The position numbers and the translations under genes are program-made. From the NCBI GenBank assembly GCA_018814305.1, contig JAHJAA010000017.1, positions 1 to 64,000 on the forward strand: DNA of 64,000 nt, written 5' to 3'. Of the stretch, positions 5,109 through 46,609 are shown piece by piece. Position 1 is the first letter of the stretch. The number at the start of each line of letters is the position of its first letter. This stretch comes from Pseudomonadota bacterium (GTDB taxonomy: Bacteria > Desulfobacterota > Desulfobulbia > Desulfobulbales > JAGXFP01). The notes below the pieces were generated by a model that made no database searches, was not told where the DNA came from, and saw nothing but the letters and a program-made list of their open reading frames with translations.

Positions 5109-5249
5109 CCGATTTGCTCTTGGACTCAATAGGTCTATCGCGTGGAGCTTGACTATGTTGTTTTTTTTTAAAATTGCCCTTATTTATATTGGGCTTACGC
5201 ACCATCGATCAACATATTTCCATTATGACAATTGTCCCGGGAGGACTCC

Positions 5250-7151
5250 TTGAATACCTTTTACAAAAACCTGTCTATGTGGCTGGTAATCGGCCTGACC
5301 ATGATTCTGTTGTTCAACCTGTTCAACAAGCAGCAAAGTCCCACAACTGAAATAAGTTACAGCGAGTTCATGACCAGTGTTGAATCAGGAGGCGTCTCCA
5401 ATGTTTCAATTGAAGGAAACGTCATTAGCGGGACGAATCAATCTGGCGGAATATTCAAGTCCATCGCCCCTCTGTCCGATTCTGAGTTGATTCCCGTCCT
5501 CCGAAAAAACGGGGTCAATATAAAAGTTAAGCCTCAGGAAGATACCCCTTGGTATCTCACCTTGCTCATCTCCTGGTTCCCCATGCTCCTCCTGATTGGA
5601 GTCTGGATTTTTTTTATGCGCCAGATGCAGGTTGGTGGCGGCAAAGCCATGTCTTTTGGCAAGAGCCGAGCCCGCTTAATGAACCGGGAAGAAATTAAGG
5701 TGACCTTTGAAGATGTGGCTGGTATTGAAGAAGCCAAGGAAGAGTTGTCCGAGATTATTGATTTCCTGAAAGACCCGAAGAAGTTCACAAAACTGGGGGG
5801 CAGAATCCCCAAAGGGGTCCTGCTGGCTGGGGCTCCTGGTACTGGCAAAACCCTCCTGGCCAAAGCCATTGCCGGCGAAGCCAATGTTCCATTTTTTTCA
5901 ATCAGTGGCTCTGATTTCGTGGAGATGTTTGTAGGGGTTGGGGCCTCCCGGGTTAGGGATCTTTTTATCCAAGGGAAAAAGAATGCCCCTTGTATCATCT
6001 TTATTGATGAAATTGATGCAGTTGGACGTCACCGTGGGGCTGGTCTCGGCGGCGGTCACGACGAACGGGAACAGACCTTGAATCAACTTCTGGTCGAAAT
6101 GGATGGGTTCGAAGCCAATGAAGGCGTTATTATTGTTTCCGCAACCAATCGCCCAGATGTACTTGATCCAGCCCTTCTCCGTCCGGGTCGATTTGACCGA
6201 CAGGTGATTGTTCCGATTCCAGATGTCAAAGGTCGGGAAAAAATTCTGGAAGTCCATGGCAAAAAGGTTCCTCTTGAAAGTGATGTTCAATGGGGGGTTA
6301 TCGCCCGCGGGACCCCGGGTTTTTCAGGTGCCGATTTGGAAAATATGGTAAACGAGGCCGCTCTCCTTGCCGCCCGATCCGCGGCTGAAAAAGTATCCAT
6401 GGAGCACCTGGAAAAGGCAAAAGACAAGGTCATGATGGGGGCAGAACGACGCAGTATGATCATCACTGTCAAAGAAAAAGGGATTACCGCCTATCATGAG
6501 GCGGGACATGCCCTGGTTACTCGACTGCTGCCGGACACCGACCCGCTGCACAAGGTCACCATCGTACCCCGTGGTCAGGCCCTTGGCCTAACCCAATCCC
6601 TGCCAATCGACGAAAAGCATACCTACCCCAAGACTTATTTGCTCAATAACATTCGCATTCTATTGGGTGGAAGGGTCGCCGAACAATTGATCTTTAACGA
6701 ACTGACCACTGGCTCTGGAAATGATATTGAAAGAGCCACCGACCTCGCCCGCAAAATGGTCTGCGAGTGGGGAATGAGCGAAAAAATGGGGCCCCTGACT
6801 TTTGGCAAAAAAGAAGAGCAGATTTTTTTGGGAAGGGAAATTTCACAACATCGAGACTACAGTGAAACTACAGCTGTGGAAATCGACCAGGAAGTGAAAA
6901 AAATGGTTATTGAGGCCAATGACCATGTGGTCCGACTACTCTCGGATAACATCGATGCCTTAAAATCTTTAGCTGAGGCCTTATTGGAAAAAGAGACCTT
7001 GGGCCCCGAAGATATTGATCAGGCCCTGGCTAATACCACTGCCGCCCCAAACCATCCGGTCGAACCAATTGACAAATCAATTGACGAAACAACTGTTGAA
7101 CCAGTAGTCGAACCTACTGAAGAACCAACCGTTGAACCTCTGACGGATTGA
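5250..7151 (+). CDS. ftsH: ATP-dependent zinc metalloprotease FtsH (copy 1)
   Basis: Membrane-bound AAA+ protease that degrades misfolded and regulatory proteins. I place the start at TTG 5250, because GGGAGGA lies 4 bp upstream and the resulting N-terminus ([15 protein letters not shown]) is typical; a TTG at 5232 would swallow that ribosome site. Two membrane helices flank a periplasmic domain (residues about 10-125). The AAA module follows, with Walker A GAPGTGKT (194-201), the pore loop [17 protein letters not shown] and Walker [12 protein letters not shown], then the zinc site HEAGH (416-420). The C-terminal tail is rich in Glu/Pro/Val/Thr and looks low-complexity. folP starts immediately downstream. 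A second, diverged FtsH is encoded at 44.8-46.6 kb. Confidence 0.97.
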
Positions 7152-15047: not shown

Positions 15048-16262
15048 CTAAGTAAAACTTACTCGGCAGAACCGTCTCTTGCCAACTTTCAACAAAACCT
15101 GCCCAACGGTTTTAAGCTCATAATCCTGATCTGTTACTTTCTCGCCATCAACGGTAACCGCATTTTGGCTAATCATCCTTCGTGCCTCGCCGGTTCCTTT
15201 CACCAAATCAACCTCAACCAGGAGTTTAGGGAGCCAGATCATGGGACCTTCCACCGGATATTTAATTTCTTGAATATCATCGGGCAAATCATGATTTCGA
15301 AAAACATTGTCAAAATTCTCTTCTGCTGCTGAAGCGGCATCTGTACCATGAAAACGACCAGTAATTTCCCTGGCCAATTGTTGCTTCACCGCCTTAGGAT
15401 GCATCCGCCCCTCGGTCATTTCAGTGGCGAGAGACTCTATTTCTGCTGCAGAAAGATCACTGAGCAATTCATAATAACGAAACATCAACGCATCGGATAC
15501 CGATAGAATTTTACCGTAAATATCGTTGGCCGATTCAGTTATCCCAATGTAATTTCCTAGGGATTTACTCATTTTATTGATGCCGTCTAATCCCTCCAAC
15601 AGGGGCATGGTCAAAACAGTTTGTGGCTCCTGTCCCCACACCTTCTGCAAGGTCCGTCCCATCAATACATTGAATAATTGATCAGTCCCCCCCAACTCCA
15701 CATCCGCATGAAGAGCAACGGAGTCGTAACCTTGAATCAGGGGATAAAGAAATTCATGGATGGAGATGGGACGATTATTTTCAAAACGCTCCTTAAAATC
15801 CTCCCTTTCCAGCATTCTAGCCACGGTCAACTGGGAGGCCAGCTTGATAAAGTCAAACGAGGTCATTTTTTCCAACCAATGGGAATTAAAAACAACCTCG
15901 GTCTTTTCCGGGTCAAGTATCTTAAAAATTTGCTCTTTATAGGTCTCCGCATTCCGTTTTACATCCTCAACAGTCAACGGTTTGCGGGTCTCTGACTTAC
16001 CAGTGGGATCACCGATCATACCGGTAAAATCACCAATCAGAAACTTAATATCATGACCGAGATCCTGGAAATGCTTGAGTTTTTGAATCAACACCGTATG
16101 ACCAAGATGCAGGTCTGGGGCCGTCGGATCAAATCCAGCTTTAATTTTCAGGGGGATACCGGTAGCGGCAGAGCGTTTCAGTTTCTCAGCCAACCCTTCC
16201 TCGGAAATCACATCGACCGCTCCCCGAACAAGGATAGCGATCTGTTCATCAATGGTCATCAT
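15048..16262 (-). CDS. tyrS: Tyrosyl-tRNA synthetase
   Basis: Charges tRNA-Tyr. The class I signatures are HLGH (in [13 protein letters not shown], about residue 50) and KMSKS (about 230). The C-terminus has an S4 RNA-binding domain ([21 protein letters not shown]). The length of 404 residues and the [10 protein letters not shown] context fit the TyrZ-like bacterial subgroup. Its ATG overlaps the rny stop by 4 bp (ATGA), so the two are translationally coupled in one operon. Confidence 0.97.
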
Positions 16263-17821
16263 TTTGCGTACTCAACAGCTCGAGTTTCCCGAATAACTGT
16301 TACCCGAATTTGTCCAGGGTAGGTCAAATCCTTTTCGATCTTTTTCGCAATATCACCACTTAAAACCACACTCTCGGTATCAGAAATTTCAGAACTGTTC
16401 ACCACAATTCGAATTTCCCGGCCGGCTTGAATGGCAAAGGCTTTATCAACTCCACTAAAAGACGTGGCTATATTTTCAAGATCCTCCAAACGTTTTACAT
16501 ATGACTCAAGCATTTCCTTCCGTGCCCCGGGACGAGCCCCAGACAGAGCATCGGCGGACTGGACGATAACATCAAGAATACCGTCAGGAGGGATATCCTC
16601 ATGGTGGGCAGCAATGGCATGGACAATTTCCGGTGATTCACCATATTTTTTAGCAAGGTCACGGCCGATGGCGGCATGGGTCCCTTCAATTTCATGGTCA
16701 ACCGCCTTCCCTATGTCATGGAGGAGTCCTGCACGTTTAGCGAGTTTCACATTAACTCCGAGCTCTGATGCAATCACCCCGGCAAGAAATGCGACCTCAA
16801 GTGAATGTTGTAAGACATTTTGTCCATAGCTGGTTCGGTATCGAAGTCGGCCCAACAGTTTAATTATTTCTATATTGACACCATGGGCCCCAACATCGAA
16901 AGTCGCCTGCTCACCGGCTTCACGCATGGAGACCTCAAGTTCCTCGGTGACCTTGATAACAATTTCCTCAATCCTGGCCGGATGAATCCTGCCATCGGTA
17001 ATCAGCCGCTCCAAGGACTGCCGGGCCACCTCCCGTCGAACCGGATTAAATCCGGAAAGAATGACTGCTTCCGGGGTATCATCGATAATGATATCAATAC
17101 CCGTAGCGGCCTCAATGGCTCTGATGTTACGACCCTCTCGACCGATGATCCGCCCCTTCATCTCTTCATTGGGTAGCGGGACGACGGAGACGGTCTTTTC
17201 AGCCACATAATCTCCGGCATAACGGGCGATGGCCAGGGCTATAATATTTTTAGCCTTCTTATCGGCCTCCATCTTGGTTTCATTCTCAATCCGAACCAAA
17301 GCCTTGGCCGCTTCCATCTTGGCTTCACTTTCTATGGACTCGGTAAGTAGACGCTTGGCCTCTTCCCTCGAAATACCGGAAATCTTTTCCAGTTTCAGCC
17401 GCTGTTCATCAATAACCTCTGAGAGTTCCTTCTTCTTCTGGAGAACACGATTTTCCTGTTTTACCGCGTGCTGTTCCCTTTTTAACAGTTCCATCTCTCG
17501 CTTATCAAGAAGATCGATTTTCCGTTCAATCTGATCAAGCTTCTGACCGAACCTCTTTTCTTCTTCAATGAGATCGGTCTTACGATGACGGATCTCATTC
17601 TCGGCCTCTACCTTAGCCTTATACGCATCATCCTTAATCTGAATAGATGCCTCTTTTTTTATCTGTTCAACCTCGGCAAGAGCGCCCTCTATCAATTTAC
17701 GGCCTTGCTCCTCAACACTATTTTGCCTTTTCTCTACAAGATTCTTTCTGAGAATAAACCCGATTATTAAACCGACCGCCGATGCAACCAGTATTGATGC
17801 AACAACAAACGACGTACTCAT
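16259..17821 (-). CDS. rny: Ribonuclease Y
   Basis: Membrane-anchored endoribonuclease that starts mRNA decay. I set the start at ATG 17821, because GGGAGGA lies 8 bp upstream and the product then opens [17 protein letters not shown], the expected anchor helix; a TTG at 17839 lies in front of that site. A long coiled coil follows (about 30-190, rich in Lys/Glu/Arg), then a KH domain ([17 protein letters not shown]) and an HD phosphohydrolase domain ([13 protein letters not shown]). The roughly 520 residues match the family. It is co-transcribed with tyrS. Confidence 0.97.
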
Positions 17822-18519
17822 TGAGACGTCCTCCCTCAAAGATTTATTAAAACAGTTAAGCGGTCATCAACATTGATGGACCGTTAACAGATTGCCATAT
17901 TGAACCAGGACATTATTTAATCCCAGTACTACTTTCGCTTTAGCGGGAAACCCGAGACGGTCTCAATGGCCAAAACGACAAATAGTAAAAAGAACCGACA
18001 CAGCGGTCCTTTTTACGACTATCCCGTAATCGAACAACACCCAGAGAATAATTTTCAGTAAAAAAAAACCATGAGATCTCCGTTTAGAACTCTTACGGAA
18101 CCTCAAAAGGATCTTCTTGAATAATACCAACGGTACGAAAGGGGAAATGTTCCCAGGGAAGGGAATAAGACACTTCAAGACATGACGGAAATAATAGCTT
18201 TATAGAAAGAAGGCTTTAGGAATTCAGCCTCCACTATTCCTTTAAACAACCGCCGAATCCGACGAGACAAAGCAGAAAGATCTTTACCAGTTGTATATAA
18301 ATAGGCGAAGACCCACCTTGCTTATTTCACTACAAATACCGGATTTATTACTCTCTCAACCGAGTTCTGCAAGTGGTTGAGTTCATTCATGTCTGAATAC
18401 CCTGGGGGAAAAAACCAACTACCACCCTTACGTTAAGCTGGAACCATCGCCCTCCTTTCCAAGCTTTTATATATATAAAATCCCAATGACAAAAAATTGC
18501 CGTGGATTATTAAACCGAT
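17822..18519. other. Long gene-poor gap between rny and the 6S RNA gene
   Basis: I find no convincing gene. A minus-strand frame of 48 codons (18321-18178) reads protein-like but has no start codon. The gap also holds a terminator-like hairpin (listed separately) and, near 18435-18466, a stem whose loop contains AGGAGGGCGATGG in the minus sense, a ribosome-site-like sequence before a 4-codon frame. The promoter of rny-tyrS should lie in the part nearest 17.9 kb. Confidence 0.5.
17985..18016. terminator. Probable bidirectional terminator hairpin
   Basis: GTAAAAAGAACCG pairs with CGGTCCTTTTTAC (one mismatch) around ACACAG, with A- and T-tracts inside the stem. It would separate transcripts coming from the 6S/zapA side from the rny operon. 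Confidence 0.6.
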
Positions 18520-18706
18520 AAATCCCCCACCAAGCCGTGTAAATAGGTTGTTAATACCGAACCTAACTATGTAGGTGGGCGTTACCCATAGCTTCATCTG
18601 GAATCTTGCAGAGCAAGTTTCCATCTTAAAGACCAGTGGAGTCACCCTTTTAAATAATGTTGGCTCGAAAACAACCTATTCATCACCAACAAGGCAGGGG
18701 AGATTT
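18520..18706 (-). ncRNA. ssrS: 6S RNA
   Basis: 6S RNA mimics an open promoter and sequesters the housekeeping RNA polymerase holoenzyme. On the minus strand a 187-nt segment folds into one long rod. Its 5' arm (AAATCTCCCCTGCC, then AATAGGTTGTT) pairs with the 3' arm (AACAACCTATT, then GGTGGGGGATTT), leaving internal bulges. The inner part contains GCCCACCTAC-ATAGT-TAGGTTCG, a hairpin typical of proteobacterial 6S RNAs. It lies 15 bp downstream of the zapA stop on the same strand, the zapA-ssrS order known from other proteobacteria. The end points are estimated from the pairing. It is not followed by fau in this window. Confidence 0.85.
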
Positions 18707-18721
18707 TGTATCATATCGTAA

Positions 18722-19000
18722 TCAATCAAATTCCTCAATTTTTTTAATTATATTCAAACCCAAGGAATCGATTTTATTACGATACGCTTCGAAATCCCTC
18801 TTCAGCTTTACATAACGACCGGCCATATTGAGGGTAGCAAGAATCACCGATTTCCCGGATGGGATAACGTTGGTTGCCGGACTGGTTTCCTCAAGATGTT
18901 TTTTCACCAAGGCAAGGATTTCCCGAACGTCTTCCTCTGGAGCGTCAGTATAGAGCGGATACTCTTGCCCGAACACTTCAAATTTAACCAGTCTCGCCAA
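18722..19000 (-). CDS. zapA: Cell division protein ZapA
   Basis: Cytoplasmic FtsZ-associated protein that bundles protofilaments at midcell. I choose TTG 19000: GGAG lies 7 bp upstream and the product opens MARLVKFEVFGQEYPLYTD, as family members do; an in-frame TTG at 19015 is less likely. The 92 residues comprise an N-terminal beta-rich head and a C-terminal helix (ILATLNMAGRYVKLKRDFEAY). It starts 19 bp after the upstream coiled-coil gene and is followed by the 6S RNA gene. Confidence 0.9.
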   Translation of the reverse strand: MARLVKFEVFGQEYPLYTDAPEEDVREILALVKKHLEETSPATNVIPSGKSVILATLNMAGRYVKLKRDFEAYRNKIDSLGLNIIKKIEEFD

Positions 19001-19018
19001 AGTCTTTCTCCACAAAAC

Positions 19019-19312
19019 CTAAAAGAGCGTTTTTTCCTCAATTCCGGTTACCTGCTGTCCGACGTCACTTTTCTTTTTAGAACTCACCAGCTCCCATCGA
19101 TCAATGGAATCAATCAAGCCGGATACTTTTTGCTGGACCTTACTCCTTTCTCCTTGCAAACTATCGACAACTCGACGCAACTCCTCGTTTTCATTCCTTT
19201 TTTCTTCAACCATCATTTCAAGTTTTGTTTTTTCATGGTGAAGTTCGTCAAGAGCCGCTATTAATTTTTCAACAGCACCTTCCAATCTGACCAAATCGTC
19301 TATCTGTTCCAT
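19019..19312 (-). CDS. ZapB-like coiled-coil protein
   Basis: A 97-residue protein that is almost entirely coiled coil (heptad-rich, DDLVRLEGAVEKLIAALDEL and the Glu/Lys-rich stretch that follows). It has no signal peptide. It directly precedes zapA on the same strand, which suggests a divisome role like ZapB (a ZapA-linked FtsZ-ring factor). The sequence itself is too low in information to prove orthology. The acidic/basic C-terminal third is not predicted to coil as strongly. Confidence 0.75.
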   Translation of the reverse strand: MEQIDDLVRLEGAVEKLIAALDELHHEKTKLEMMVEEKRNENEELRRVVDSLQGERSKVQQKVSGLIDSIDRWELVSSKKKSDVGQQVTGIEEKTLF

Positions 19313-32641: not shown

Positions 32642-34111
32642 TCATTGGGGCTCATCATGGCAGAGATCACACTCCTGCTTAATAACCTTGCCACTGCTGT
32701 CCTCGTGCTCTTCATCATGGCAGCGGAAGCATCCGAATGTAGTATCAGCGAATTGATAATTGCCGTAATCTTCTGAACGGTGGCCCAAATGTCCCTGGTA
32801 GGTTCCCCAGACAACTCTGGTTTCGGGCCAGCAGTTGGCAAGATACCCTTCGGCCAGATACCGTCCGGTCTTTTCAATATCAGCCCGATACTGCTCAACA
32901 TCATCCCCATGGCGTTTGTACTGAAGCTCCATGAGAACACTGCCGATTTTTGCATCAGCCTCTTCCCGAGTGGCGTAGTCGCCGGTGATTGCGGTGAGGG
33001 AATCTTCCCTGATCCCTGGGATGTCACGGCTGATAACTCTGCTCAACAGACCAAAGTCGACCACCTGCTCAGGCATATCATAGATATGGGTCGGACGGTT
33101 ATGGCAATCGATGCAGTCCATAACCCGCCATTCACCAGCCTCTCCCTCCGGAATTTCCGCTCCAGTCTTGACGAATTCGTCACGACTGCCATCGGGACGC
33201 TTAACCTGAACCTTGACAATATCAGTACGAGCGGCATCAGTGGCCAGATATCGAACCTCTACATCCTTGGACACATGCCAATGAATACCCTCAAACTTAT
33301 CATTCTCTGGATTACGTCCACCGATATGGAGTGCAATTTCCGTGACCGCAGGTTCTGCAAGATCATCATTATAAAAATGTTTAAAGATCTTTACTTTCTT
33401 ACCATGGAATTTATCAGGCCAATGGCAGTGTTCGCAGGTATCTCGAGCCGGGCGAAGGTGTTCAACCGGGGCGGGGATCGGCTTGGAGTAGCTGTCGGTC
33501 AACACGGCGGCAACCTGACGGAGTCCGGAAATCTTGGCCCGAACAAACCATTGGGCGCCGGGGCCGATATGGCATTCCACACAGGCCACATTGGAATGGG
33601 CTGACCTCTGATAGACGGTGTATTCAGGAGCCATAACCTGATGGCAGACCTGACCGCAAAAGTATGGAGAATCGGTGAAATGATATCCTTCGTAACCAAT
33701 AATACCGAGAACGCAGACATTGATGACCGTCAAAACAATAAATACAATCATGAACTTCCGATGTCGATGGTCGCTCAGATTGATGTGCAGATGTTCACGG
33801 GGGATCCCAAATCTATGCCACTGACGTCGGCGGAGAAAACCAGCGATGGGGATCAGCAAAAGGCCGGTAACCATACCCCCGGGAAGGATCATATAGGTGA
33901 AAATATTGGCGTAGGGATTTTCAATCAACCCCAGCATATCGAAGATCACCCCAATAACCATCAAGGTAATACTGACCGTGGTCAGAGTCACTCCCATAAG
34001 TCCCAAAGGTGAACGCCACATTCCCCTAATAATGTATCCCCAGGGTCCCTTGCCTAATTTCTCATCGGCCAGGTTTACGTTTTCCGTCCGATTGTTGTCA
34101 CTGTCAGCCAT
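32642..34111 (-). CDS. NapC/NirT-type membrane cytochrome c with six haem motifs (paralog 1)
   Basis: 489 residues from ATG 34111 (GGAG upstream). Three membrane helices occupy about 38-60, 70-92 and 119-140. The haem sites are CGQVCH (152-157, an unusual CX3CH), CVECH (177-181), CEHCH (226-230), CIDCH (333-337), CFRCH (461-465) and CDLCH (481-485). The NapC/NirT family oxidises quinol and passes electrons to periplasmic partners. The extra C-terminal haems go beyond the tetrahaem NapC core. A paralog with the same motif order is encoded at 43248-44723. A MerR-type regulator gene lies 88 bp upstream in the same direction. Confidence 0.9.
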   Translation of the reverse strand: MADSDNNRTENVNLADEKLGKGPWGYIIRGMWRSPLGLMGVTLTTVSITLMVIGVIFDMLGLIENPYANIFTYMILPGGMVTGLLLIPIAGFLRRRQWHRFGIPREHLHINLSDHRHRKFMIVFIVLTVINVCVLGIIGYEGYHFTDSPYFCGQVCHQVMAPEYTVYQRSAHSNVACVECHIGPGAQWFVRAKISGLRQVAAVLTDSYSKPIPAPVEHLRPARDTCEHCHWPDKFHGKKVKIFKHFYNDDLAEPAVTEIALHIGGRNPENDKFEGIHWHVSKDVEVRYLATDAARTDIVKVQVKRPDGSRDEFVKTGAEIPEGEAGEWRVMDCIDCHNRPTHIYDMPEQVVDFGLLSRVISRDIPGIREDSLTAITGDYATREEADAKIGSVLMELQYKRHGDDVEQYRADIEKTGRYLAEGYLANCWPETRVVWGTYQGHLGHRSEDYGNYQFADTTFGCFRCHDEEHEDSSGKVIKQECDLCHDEPQ

Positions 34112-34199
34112 TACAACCACTCCTTATCAAATATTAACCCTAACAATTGAAACTTCGGGACGAGACCTACCTCGACCGAAAAAAAGAAGAAATTCTATA

Positions 34200-43221: not shown

Positions 43222-43260
43222 GGGTGTTAAATAGTTTCGGATGGAAACTATTTAACACCC
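43222..43260. other. Perfect 17-bp hairpin overlapping the cytochrome stop codon
   Basis: GGGTGTTAAATAGTTTC is exactly repeated as its reverse complement (43244-43260) across a 5-nt loop. The cytochrome's TAA (43250-43248, minus) lies inside the stem. No T-tract follows in the minus sense, so it is not a classic terminator. mRNA 3'-end protection or a protein-binding dyad are alternatives. Confidence 0.6.
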
Positions 43261-44723
43261 TTATCACCATACAACAAATTCATGATTGCCGGATCTTTCT
43301 CATGATCGGCTAGAACCACATGACAGAGATCACAACCATTGGGAATAACCCGTCCCGCCTCTGTACGATGATTCCCCTCATGACACCGGAAACAGCCCCC
43401 ACCCTGCCGGTGCCCAAGGGTGCTCCCATAGGTTCCCCAATCGACATTCATTTCAGGGAAAACATTTTCCGAATAGGCCCGACCAATACCGGCAATGGCC
43501 CTGGATAATTGCTCCCACTGGAGCTGATATACCCGTGGTTCATTATCCCGATACCATGATTCAATTCGAACGGCGATGGCCTTCAGCGCCTCGGTCTGTG
43601 AGGAATATTCCAGACGAAGAGCTTCAACCGCTTGCCTTTTAATAAATGGCAGCTCGGACGAAATCAGTCCCTCGATCATTTTTTGGTCAATGGCCTCCTC
43701 CGGGGCCAGAAAGATGTGGGTAGGTCGATTATGACAATCAAGGCAGTCCATCAAGCGGAAGTCCTCAGAGGCCGGACCCTTCGGTGAAGTGTAATCACCA
43801 GTTGAAGAGAAAATAATTTCACTCCCGTCATGGTCGATCAATTTCACTTTCGTTATGGAATCGCCATCATCTGAACTCTGAAAATAAACATGATGATTAG
43901 GAGAGACATGCCAATGGATTCCCTGGGCAGCACCGGTACGATACCCTCCACTACCGACTTTCATCAAGAGCACCGTCCGGACCACGGTATTCTTTTCATC
44001 GGGCAGATATGAATCCTTCAGATATAATTTTGCGCCATGAAACATTTCCGGGCGGTGGCATTTTTCACAGACATTTCGATTGGGTCGCAATGATTTAATA
44101 GGCGTTTTCAAAGGACGATCAAAGCTGTTAAAAAGGGTAGAAAAAATCTGTTTTATACCCGACACCTTGGCCTTGGTGAACAGACCTGCATTTTCATCAA
44201 TGTGGCATTCGACACAGGATACCCTGGAATGGGGAGAATTTTGATGGGTGATATATTCCGGTTCCATCACCACGTGACAAAATTGGCCGCAAAAGCTAAC
44301 CGTTTCCGTGTATTTGTAGCCGGAAACAGAAACAACCAGAACAACCAGGGTGGTCAATGCCATAAGAAAAGAGGAGAGATAGATCAATTTACGAACCCTG
44401 GTAAATCGGCCCGGCATGCTCAATTGATCTTTGATATACTCCAAGGTAAAGAGACCAATTGCCTCCTTGTCCTTAAAAAAAAGAACCCCGATCACGGCGG
44501 TGGCCAAACCGGCCATGAAGATCGGTCCCATGACCATATAAATCAAAAAACCAAAATAGGGGTTTTCGGCCCCGCCCTTCATATCGAGAATGGCTGAAAT
44601 AACCAAAACAGGTAAAACCACTCCGGAGATGACCGACCCAGCCATGGCTACCCGACTGCTGGCCAGGGTTTTGATCAGATCTTTAATAAGCGTTGAAGAG
44701 GTGTCTAACACCTGCTTTCTCAT
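43248..44723 (-). CDS. NapC/NirT-type membrane cytochrome c with six haem motifs (paralog 2)
   Basis: 491 residues, with three membrane helices (about 27-47, 58-82, 113-135) and the same haem order as paralog 1: CGQFCH (145-150, CX3CH), CVECH (170-174), CEKCH (219-223), CLDCH (327-331), CFRCH (444-448), CDLCH (464-468). The EPEYITHQNSPHSRVSCVEC stretch corresponds to APEYTVYQRSAHSNVACVEC in paralog 1. The two share a clear ancestor but have diverged, which suggests different donors or conditions. The gene is monocistronic. Confidence 0.9.
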   Translation of the reverse strand: MRKQVLDTSSTLIKDLIKTLASSRVAMAGSVISGVVLPVLVISAILDMKGGAENPYFGFLIYMVMGPIFMAGLATAVIGVLFFKDKEAIGLFTLEYIKDQLSMPGRFTRVRKLIYLSSFLMALTTLVVLVVSVSGYKYTETVSFCGQFCHVVMEPEYITHQNSPHSRVSCVECHIDENAGLFTKAKVSGIKQIFSTLFNSFDRPLKTPIKSLRPNRNVCEKCHRPEMFHGAKLYLKDSYLPDEKNTVVRTVLLMKVGSGGYRTGAAQGIHWHVSPNHHVYFQSSDDGDSITKVKLIDHDGSEIIFSSTGDYTSPKGPASEDFRLMDCLDCHNRPTHIFLAPEEAIDQKMIEGLISSELPFIKRQAVEALRLEYSSQTEALKAIAVRIESWYRDNEPRVYQLQWEQLSRAIAGIGRAYSENVFPEMNVDWGTYGSTLGHRQGGGCFRCHEGNHRTEAGRVIPNGCDLCHVVLADHEKDPAIMNLLYGDKGVK

Positions 44724-44788: not shown

Positions 44789-46609
44789 TTACAGGGAGCA
44801 TTCCTCTGCCCCGCTCACATCTTCACCGGCCTTCTTCCTGACGGCACAATTATAAATAATATCAAGTTCTTCACGGTCCAGGGTCTCAGCCTCCAGCAGA
44901 ATCTGACTCAACTGCTCTAAAAACTGCTTTTCCTTTTGGAGCAGAAGAACCGCATCACTATAACAGTCCTCCACCAATTTCTTGATTTCTTCATCAAGGA
45001 GGCGAGCCGTCTGCTCACTGTAATTCCGAATCACCGCAGGTCCGCCTAAGAAGCTATCCTGCCCTTGTACAAAGGCCAGAGGACCTACCACATCACTCAT
45101 CCCCCAGGCACAGACCATGTTGGTGGCGATCCCGATGGCCTGCTGGAGATCCCCCTCGGCCCCGGTAGTTCGTTGCATCATCAGAATTTCCTCCGCCGCT
45201 CTCCCCCCCATCAAAATAGTAATTCGGCTGCGGAGGTACTCCCTGCTATAGGCATGCCGATCCTGAAGGGGAAGCTGTTGAGTATGCCCCATGGCTCTCC
45301 CCCTGGGGATGATGGTGATCTTGTGGAGAGGATCAGCCTCTGGGATAAATTTGGCAACGATGGCGTGACCCGCTTCATGGACAGCCATGGTCCTTTTATC
45401 CTTCTGACTAATGACCAGACCCTTGCGCTCCACGCCCATGAGAATCCGGTCCTTGGCCATATCAAAATCGCCCTGATTAATGGAGTTTTTATCGGTACGT
45501 CCAGCGATGAGCGCCGCTTCATTAACCAGACTGCACAACTCGGCACCGGTAAATCCAGGAGTACTCCGAGCCACTTCCTGAAGGTCAACACTGGCATCCA
45601 GAGGGACATTCCGGGTGTGGACTTTGAGAATCTTCTGCCTCCCCTTGATGTCGGGTGGAAGGATATTGATTATCCGGTCAAAACGTCCCGGTCGGAGCAA
45701 AGCAGGATCGAGAATATCCGGTCTGTTGGTGGCAGCCAACACGATGATGTTATCGTCCGAACCAAAGCCATCCATCTCGACCAAAAGGGCGTTTAAGGTC
45801 TGCCCTCGCTCTTCCTGACCGCCGGCACTCCCTGAACCTCCACGATGACCACCCACCGCGTCGATTTCGTCGATGAAGATAATGCAGGGTTTATTTTTCT
45901 TCGCCTCCTTGAACAGTTCACGAACCCGAGAGGCTCCTACCCCAACAAACATTTCCACAAAATCGGAACCGCTGATGCTGAAAAAAGGAACCCCCGCCTC
46001 ACCGGCAATTGCCCTGGCCAACAAGGTCTTCCCCGTTCCAGGTGGTCCCTGGAACAATACGCCTTTGGGAATTACCGCACCCAACCGATTATATTTACGG
46101 GGATTCTGCATGAAATCCACCAGTTCCAAAAGTTCCCCCTTGGCCTCTGGTATCCCGGTTACATCGCGGAAGGTAACCTGACGTCCGGATTTGGCAAAGG
46201 AGGCCTTATCCCGGGCAAAATCTGAAACTTCTCCGGCGGTTTGCCGACGGATCATCATGAACCAGACCAATAGGACAAGCGCCACTGGAATCAGCAGATT
46301 CAGAAGATTCCAAAAGGCGGAACGCCCCTCATTCCGGCCATAAATTTTGACCTTTTTTTCAAGGAGAAGCGGAAGAATCTGCTGGACATCAGGTACATAG
46401 GTAGCAAATTCACGATGGTAGGTATCGGTGTAGGCAAGCTCCCCTCCCTGAAATTTTACTTCAACCACCTCGCCGTTTTGAACCGCCGTCAAAAAATCCC
46501 AATAGGCCATATCCGGCTGGCTCTCTTCCAGTTGCCAGAAGATGTACCCTGAACCACCGACCAGAGCCAGTAATCCCAGAACAAATATCACTCTTATAAA
46601 GTTTGCCAT
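44789..46609 (-). CDS. ftsH: ATP-dependent zinc metalloprotease FtsH (copy 2)
   Basis: 606 residues, clearly FtsH. It has an N-terminal helix ([20 protein letters not shown]), a short periplasmic domain, helix 2 ([16 protein letters not shown]), Walker A GPPGTGKT, pore loop [28 protein letters not shown] and HEAGH (411-415). It lacks the Pro/Glu/Val-rich tail of copy 1 and differs in the periplasmic domain. Having two FtsH genes suggests specialised substrates. A 65-bp gap separates its stop from the six-haem cytochrome gene. Confidence 0.96.

Follow-up and report, generated by a model that had tools for sequence, protein, structure and literature searches.

A 6S RNA gene in its order's usual place between zapA and rny, and a candidate RNA element in the gap that follows it

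Results

A 6S RNA gene lies downstream of zapA

The locus of interest lies in a 64 kb stretch of DNA, analysed as a whole and referred to here as the window. Read along the minus strand, it consists of a zapB-like gene, zapA, a 6S RNA gene (ssrS), a long non-coding gap and rny. All of these genes are co-oriented, and zapA is directly upstream of 6S (Table 1).

Table 1. Features of the 6S region of the window, ordered along the minus strand
Feature	Position	Strand	Basis
zapB-like gene	19019..19312	minus	Pfam PF06005, 31.1 bits, just below cut-off 31.5
zapA	18722..19015	minus	Pfam PF05164 (ZapA), 45.6 bits, E 9e-12
Promoter-like TTGAGG-17-TATGAT, weak	18710..18738	minus	9/12 consensus matches; start would fall near 18703
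6S RNA gene (ssrS), full length	18520..18703	minus	RF00013 match, fold, single copy in genome
T1, imperfect hairpin then TTTATATATAT, terminator-like, just after 6S	18467..18508	minus	Fold; same layout in relatives
ATATA..GGAGG motif, start of putative element 2	18451..18476	minus	Motif counts in loci
Element 2, putative non-coding	18293..18470	minus	Position and flanking signals
T2, terminator-like hairpin AGGTGGGTCTTCGCCT + ATTTATATA	18294..18318	minus	Same position class in relatives
Strong 13-bp terminator-like hairpin, ~165 nt upstream of rny	17985..18016	minus	Site search
rny (RNase Y)	16259..17821	minus	Pfam RNase_Y_N (E 7e-48), KH_1, HD

A sequence-only reading of this DNA had proposed a 6S RNA gene downstream of zapA, with a covariance-model search as the check. 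In that search (cmscan), RF00013 is the sole gathering-level match in the window: it runs from 18703 to 18520 on the minus strand, covers model positions 1–187 of 187 without truncation, and scores 64.5 bits against a cut-off of 46.4 (E 1.9e-10). Both the identity of the RNA and its position next to zapA are thus borne out. The bounds first proposed, 18520–18706 (187 nt), stand at the 18520 end, while at the other end the model match is three bases shorter. 6S is present in a single copy in the genome of the window. Matches that pass the cut-off come from 50 of 58 genomes, the window's own counted, and from 180 of 218 genomes of the order.

The 6S strand folds with a minimum free energy of -75.8 kcal/mol, against -47.1 +/- 4.3 in 200 dinucleotide shuffles (z -6.6; no shuffle did as well). 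A z-score of -11.3 had been obtained from 40 shuffles; since 40-shuffle scores are noisy, -6.6 is used here. The predicted fold is rod-like, with the 5' and 3' ends paired with each other, as the earlier reading had described. The strands of the central bubble are aligned by the RF00013 model, and the minimum-energy fold pairs part of them. By folding energy the window 6S ranks 21st among 109 6S RNAs of the order and so is not extreme overall. Its covariance score counts somewhat against it, being lower than that of many members of the phylum, which reach 124.8 bits.

Two internal segments were inspected more closely. Firstly, AATAGGTTGTT (18680–18670) is paired with AACAACCTATT (18552–18542) in the predicted fold, giving 11 uninterrupted Watson-Crick pairs in the closing stem where the RF00013 model has an internal loop. 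This is the longest such helix among the 109 6S RNAs of the order (next longest 9, commonest 5). The pairing put forward as an identifier of 6S is therefore real, but it is peculiar to the window copy rather than diagnostic. Secondly, the central-bubble strand CCCACCTAC...TAGGTTCG, also cited in the earlier reading, is typical of 6S: a loose form of the pattern occurs in 107 of the 109 RNAs, and GCCCACC in 84.

We are practically certain that 18703–18520 encodes the 6S RNA of a member of the Desulfobulbales and that the gene has the order's usual zapB-zapA-6S-rny neighbourhood. Its 6S status follows from sequence and structure membership, single copy and conserved neighbours. It shares with 6S RNA (SsrS, RF00013) a covariance match over the full length of the model, a rod-like fold, the occurrence as one gene copy downstream of zapA and a central-bubble strand with GCCCACC...AGGTTC. 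It differs in (i) the perfect 11-bp helix that stands in the closing stem in place of an internal loop, and (ii) the presence of rny, instead of fau, as the next gene. That the locus encodes some rod-like RNA other than 6S is hardly credible: the score is moderate and an inner helix so long and perfect is not typical, but the model is matched over its full length above a curated cut-off, and relatives have their 6S at this very locus.

6S RNAs fold into a rod whose central bubble mimics an open promoter. They bind the RNA polymerase holoenzyme carrying the housekeeping sigma factor once growth stops, and come off again as the polymerase transcribes a short product RNA from them. By analogy, and from its family membership, we infer that the window 6S would bind the housekeeping holoenzyme at growth arrest and be released via a product RNA.

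rny, rather than fau, follows 6S

Because the rny start is placed at the ATG at 17821, which is preceded by a GGGAGG site, the 6S-rny gap measures 698 nt; the open frame extends to a TTG at 17839, leaving 680 nt to the start of the longest frame. This agrees with the earlier estimate of about 700 bp without a gene. The zapA-6S-fau synteny is not found in the window, where rny is next downstream, and the fau-family genes of the genome lie on contigs 5 and 22, away from 6S. In E. coli, ssrS is followed by fau (ygfA). The window is alike in that a co-oriented protein gene comes after 6S, and unlike in that this gene is rny and lies beyond a non-coding gap.

In relatives, too, rny is the usual gene after 6S. 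Of 30 loci of the order (29 relatives plus the window), 29 have rny downstream of 6S and one is cut off by its contig end just past 6S; ZapA is found in 29. Over a wider set of 109 order loci, rny is downstream of 6S in 103, at a distance of 242–1035 nt (median 531); a match to rny is absent from the stretch fetched in the other six. Outside the order, the best 30 of 109 6S matches in the phylum, taken by score, have rny downstream in all 30 cases (at some loci only ~110–150 nt away) and a ZapA recognisable by tblastn in nine. When 17 named rny loci were searched instead, 6S was above the cut-off in four (three Desulfobulbales, one Desulfarculaceae) and not in the other 13, Geomonas and Desulfuromonas among them; Desulforhopalus singaporensis is one species with a 6S locus. 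The nearest RNase Y relatives are those of Desulfocapsa, Desulforhopalus, Desulfopila and Desulfurivibrio, all of which we take to belong to the order Desulfobulbales.

Since rny comes after 6S in nearly all of these order and phylum loci, the absence of fau, which the earlier reading had correctly observed and set against other bacteria, is ordinary here and the norm of the lineage. Barrick 2005 and Wehner 2014 may treat delta-proteobacterial synteny. PMC9130861 states that no single 6S synteny is valid across all bacteria, and places ygfA/fau beside 6S in alpha- and gamma-proteobacteria and in only some beta- and delta-proteobacteria and Firmicutes.

Elsewhere in the window, two other pairs of genes were noted. 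The genes at 5232–7151 and 44789–46609 read, from their translations, as FtsH-like membrane proteases. Those at 32642–34120 and 43248–44723 encode two long proteins that resemble each other and carry several CxxCH-type motifs; by eye they look like cytochromes of the NapC/NrfH kind.

A conserved promoter is not seen directly upstream of 6S

Promoter-like sites are no more frequent in the region than chance would have it (two found, 3.3 expected in shuffles). One of them, TTGAGG-17-TATGAT, is well placed to be the 6S promoter. It is not relied on, because the signal is not conserved directly upstream of 6S across the 109 order loci and because its TTGAGG lies within the coding end of zapA. The absence of a conserved 6S promoter is compatible with co-transcription from zapBA.

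The 6S-rny gap is conserved within genera and families

A nucleotide alignment of the 6S-rny gap across the order contains no well-conserved columns; conservation becomes visible only within genera or families. We compared 43 within-genus pairs from 18 genera, setting the best 100-nt stretch of the gap against the third-codon identity of rny. The gap stretch was the more conserved in 42 of the 42 measurable pairs, a comparison inflated by the choice of the best of many windows. Column permutation, which controls for this inflation, gave p <= 0.03 in 41 of the 43 pairs (exceptions 0.08 and 0.23). The best stretch begins 7–235 nt past 6S.

No open reading frame is shared within the gap: in eight of nine genus groups, the longest in-phase frame common to all members is 9–21 codons on the 6S strand and 10–33 codons on the opposite strand. 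The exception, genus g20, has frames of 54 and 58 codons in two nearly identical loci. A coding reading of the gap was rejected on these grounds. That the conserved stretch is a short-protein gene is thus improbable; by eye, a stop-free frame does span the conserved core in genus g22, but one g22 member carries a 1-nt indel in that core.

Known RNA families do not account for the gap. At gathering score, Rfam 15 contains no family besides 6S that matches the window, and neither tRNA nor tmRNA was found within its 64 kb. A search of 20 related loci against Rfam with E up to 1 gave one sub-threshold match besides 6S. The candidates seen, a rimP leader and a snoRNA, are sub-threshold and were taken as chance; the rimP-leader match (RF01770; 17947–18045), at 27.2 bits, is far under the cut-off of 47. 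Among the papers listed in literature searches, none has a title or abstract opening on an RNA between 6S and rny.

Terminator-like signals recur at two places. Just after 6S, many loci contain a hairpin that runs into TTTANATATA or a stretch of T; in this first (T1) zone, 32 of 107 loci have a canonical terminator on the 6S strand, compared with four on the opposite strand and 5.2 in shuffled sequence. In the second (T2) zone, 110–300 nt past 6S, they occur in 24 of 107 loci, compared with five and 10.0, respectively. Families f12, f4 and f3 have a conserved hairpin, CCTGA..TCAGG, with a T-rich TTTAYATATA-like tail in the second zone. The gap of the relatives holds a conserved non-coding element of ~100–200 nt between two terminator-like hairpins.

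Covariation points to a three-helix RNA in family f12

A covariance model, R1, was built from 12 loci of family f12. On its own 12 training rows, covariation is weak (19 and 22 of 500 shuffles did as well, by two measures). When R1 was run on 97 other loci with E up to 10, it gave five matches, in families f12, f4 and f3; all are on the 6S strand and within the 6S-rny gap, and three are weak (E 0.04–0.28). Within f12, R1 matches 29 of 34 loci, including 15 of 20 newly fetched ones, and leaves five unmatched. Across 395 genomes of the phylum it matches in only three, all of family f12.

In the 29 matched f12 rows, both partners of a pair have changed in 37 cells; shuffles give 13.6 +/- 3.1, and none of 500 did as well (phylogeny uncorrected). 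In this alignment, which was fitted to R1, true partners pair in 86.9% of cells, compared with 20–50% when partners are slid by 1–3 columns. Both-sided changes in helices A and B exceed those of shuffles and of slid partners. RNAalifold, run on the same rows, recovers helix A and the terminal hairpin but not helix B; of the 10 pairs that it predicts, 6 show changes on both sides. According to this model, the gap element in family f12 is a three-helix RNA with covariation.

Folding energy gives the structural argument no support. Over 101 loci, the element has a mean z of -0.91, unremarkable beside the -0.83 of the 200 nt that end the gap (Wilcoxon, element against rest of gap, p 0.25).

The putative copy of the element in the window

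In the window, the T2 hairpin proper lies at 18318–18303, and terminator-like sites in the region number four, against 1.8 expected in shuffles. The ATATA..GGAGG motif, a pattern composed after the sequences had been inspected, occurs in 13 of 109 loci from ten genera, including all three of the window's family; the following 110 nt contain it in one of 109 loci, and 0.8 are expected in shuffles. Three loci were usable in the window's family, since two of its genomes have no match to 6S or zapA. Between the other two loci of the family, conservation is high (0.94 in the best stretch), but both align poorly with the window.

R1 does not match the window copy, with E up to 10 in the window's locus, nor does it match elsewhere in the window's genome, and the fold of element 2 is ordinary (z +0.98). 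A hairpin A drawn by eye in the window is missing from the minimum-energy fold, and was therefore left off the list of parts. The last 200 nt of the window gap fold unusually well (z -5.4, 40 shuffles); no conservation of the strong hairpin at 17985–18016 was seen. Position, ATATA..GGAGG and the T2 hairpin suggest that the window copy is homologous to the element of other families.

Separately, two loci outside the order, each with a short gap after 6S, show by eye a long stem around ATATAAA..GGAGGTAAA, which is possibly a relative of the window motif.

Discussion

The gap element of the relatives most likely acts as an RNA transcribed from the same strand as 6S and rny. As to the kind of RNA, two readings stand nearly level.

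According to the first, element 2 is a small RNA in its own right, produced by read-through from 6S or from a promoter of its own, and ending at T2. We consider this quite possible, if somewhat short of even. In both zones the 6S strand has an excess of terminator-like sites, which points this way, as does the hairpin with its TTTAYATATA-like tail in f12, f4 and f3. On the other hand, most loci have no canonical terminator at either place, no 6S promoter is conserved, the sole same-strand promoter-like site in the window is the 6S one, and the element's fold z is unremarkable.

Alternatively, and still tentatively, element 2 may belong to a long leader of rny: a single transcript would run from 6S through the element into rny, with T1/T2 or cleavage of the leader by RNase Y setting the level of RNase Y. 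The constant adjacency of 6S and rny in the phylum loci (the best 30 of 109), with the short distances at some of them, is in keeping with such a transcript, and so is the strong hairpin that precedes rny in the window; the conserved part, however, adjoins 6S and not rny. A precedent exists in Bacillus subtilis, where, as PMC10303841 describes, RNase Y cleaves the 5' UTR of its own rny mRNA and thereby regulates itself. In the window, too, a non-coding stretch precedes rny, but with 6S upstream and the conserved part beside 6S. The Bacillus leader is a different one, likened to this stretch by position and not by sequence, and cleavage here would be by analogy.

A third reading, in which the conservation acts at the level of DNA only, as promoters or binding sites for rny, is unlikely. 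It would fit the ordinary folding energies of the element, but in helices A and B of family f12 pairs change on both sides more often than in shuffles or with slid partners, which argues against it.

Returning to the element as an RNA, we would give even chances to the following proposal: that Desulfobulbales, including the genome of the window, carry an undescribed RNA immediately past 6S and ahead of rny, with a terminator near 6S, then a helix A that varies, a helix B and a hairpin that ends it, conserved within genera to about the degree of 6S, which may couple 6S synthesis to the level of RNase Y or be a separate regulatory RNA.

The window 6S itself is one further member of a known family, and in the phylum loci examined the usual neighbour of 6S is rny, not fau. 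Should the gap element prove to be an RNA, a new conserved RNA would stand between 6S, which restrains RNA polymerase, and rny, which encodes a main RNA-decay enzyme.
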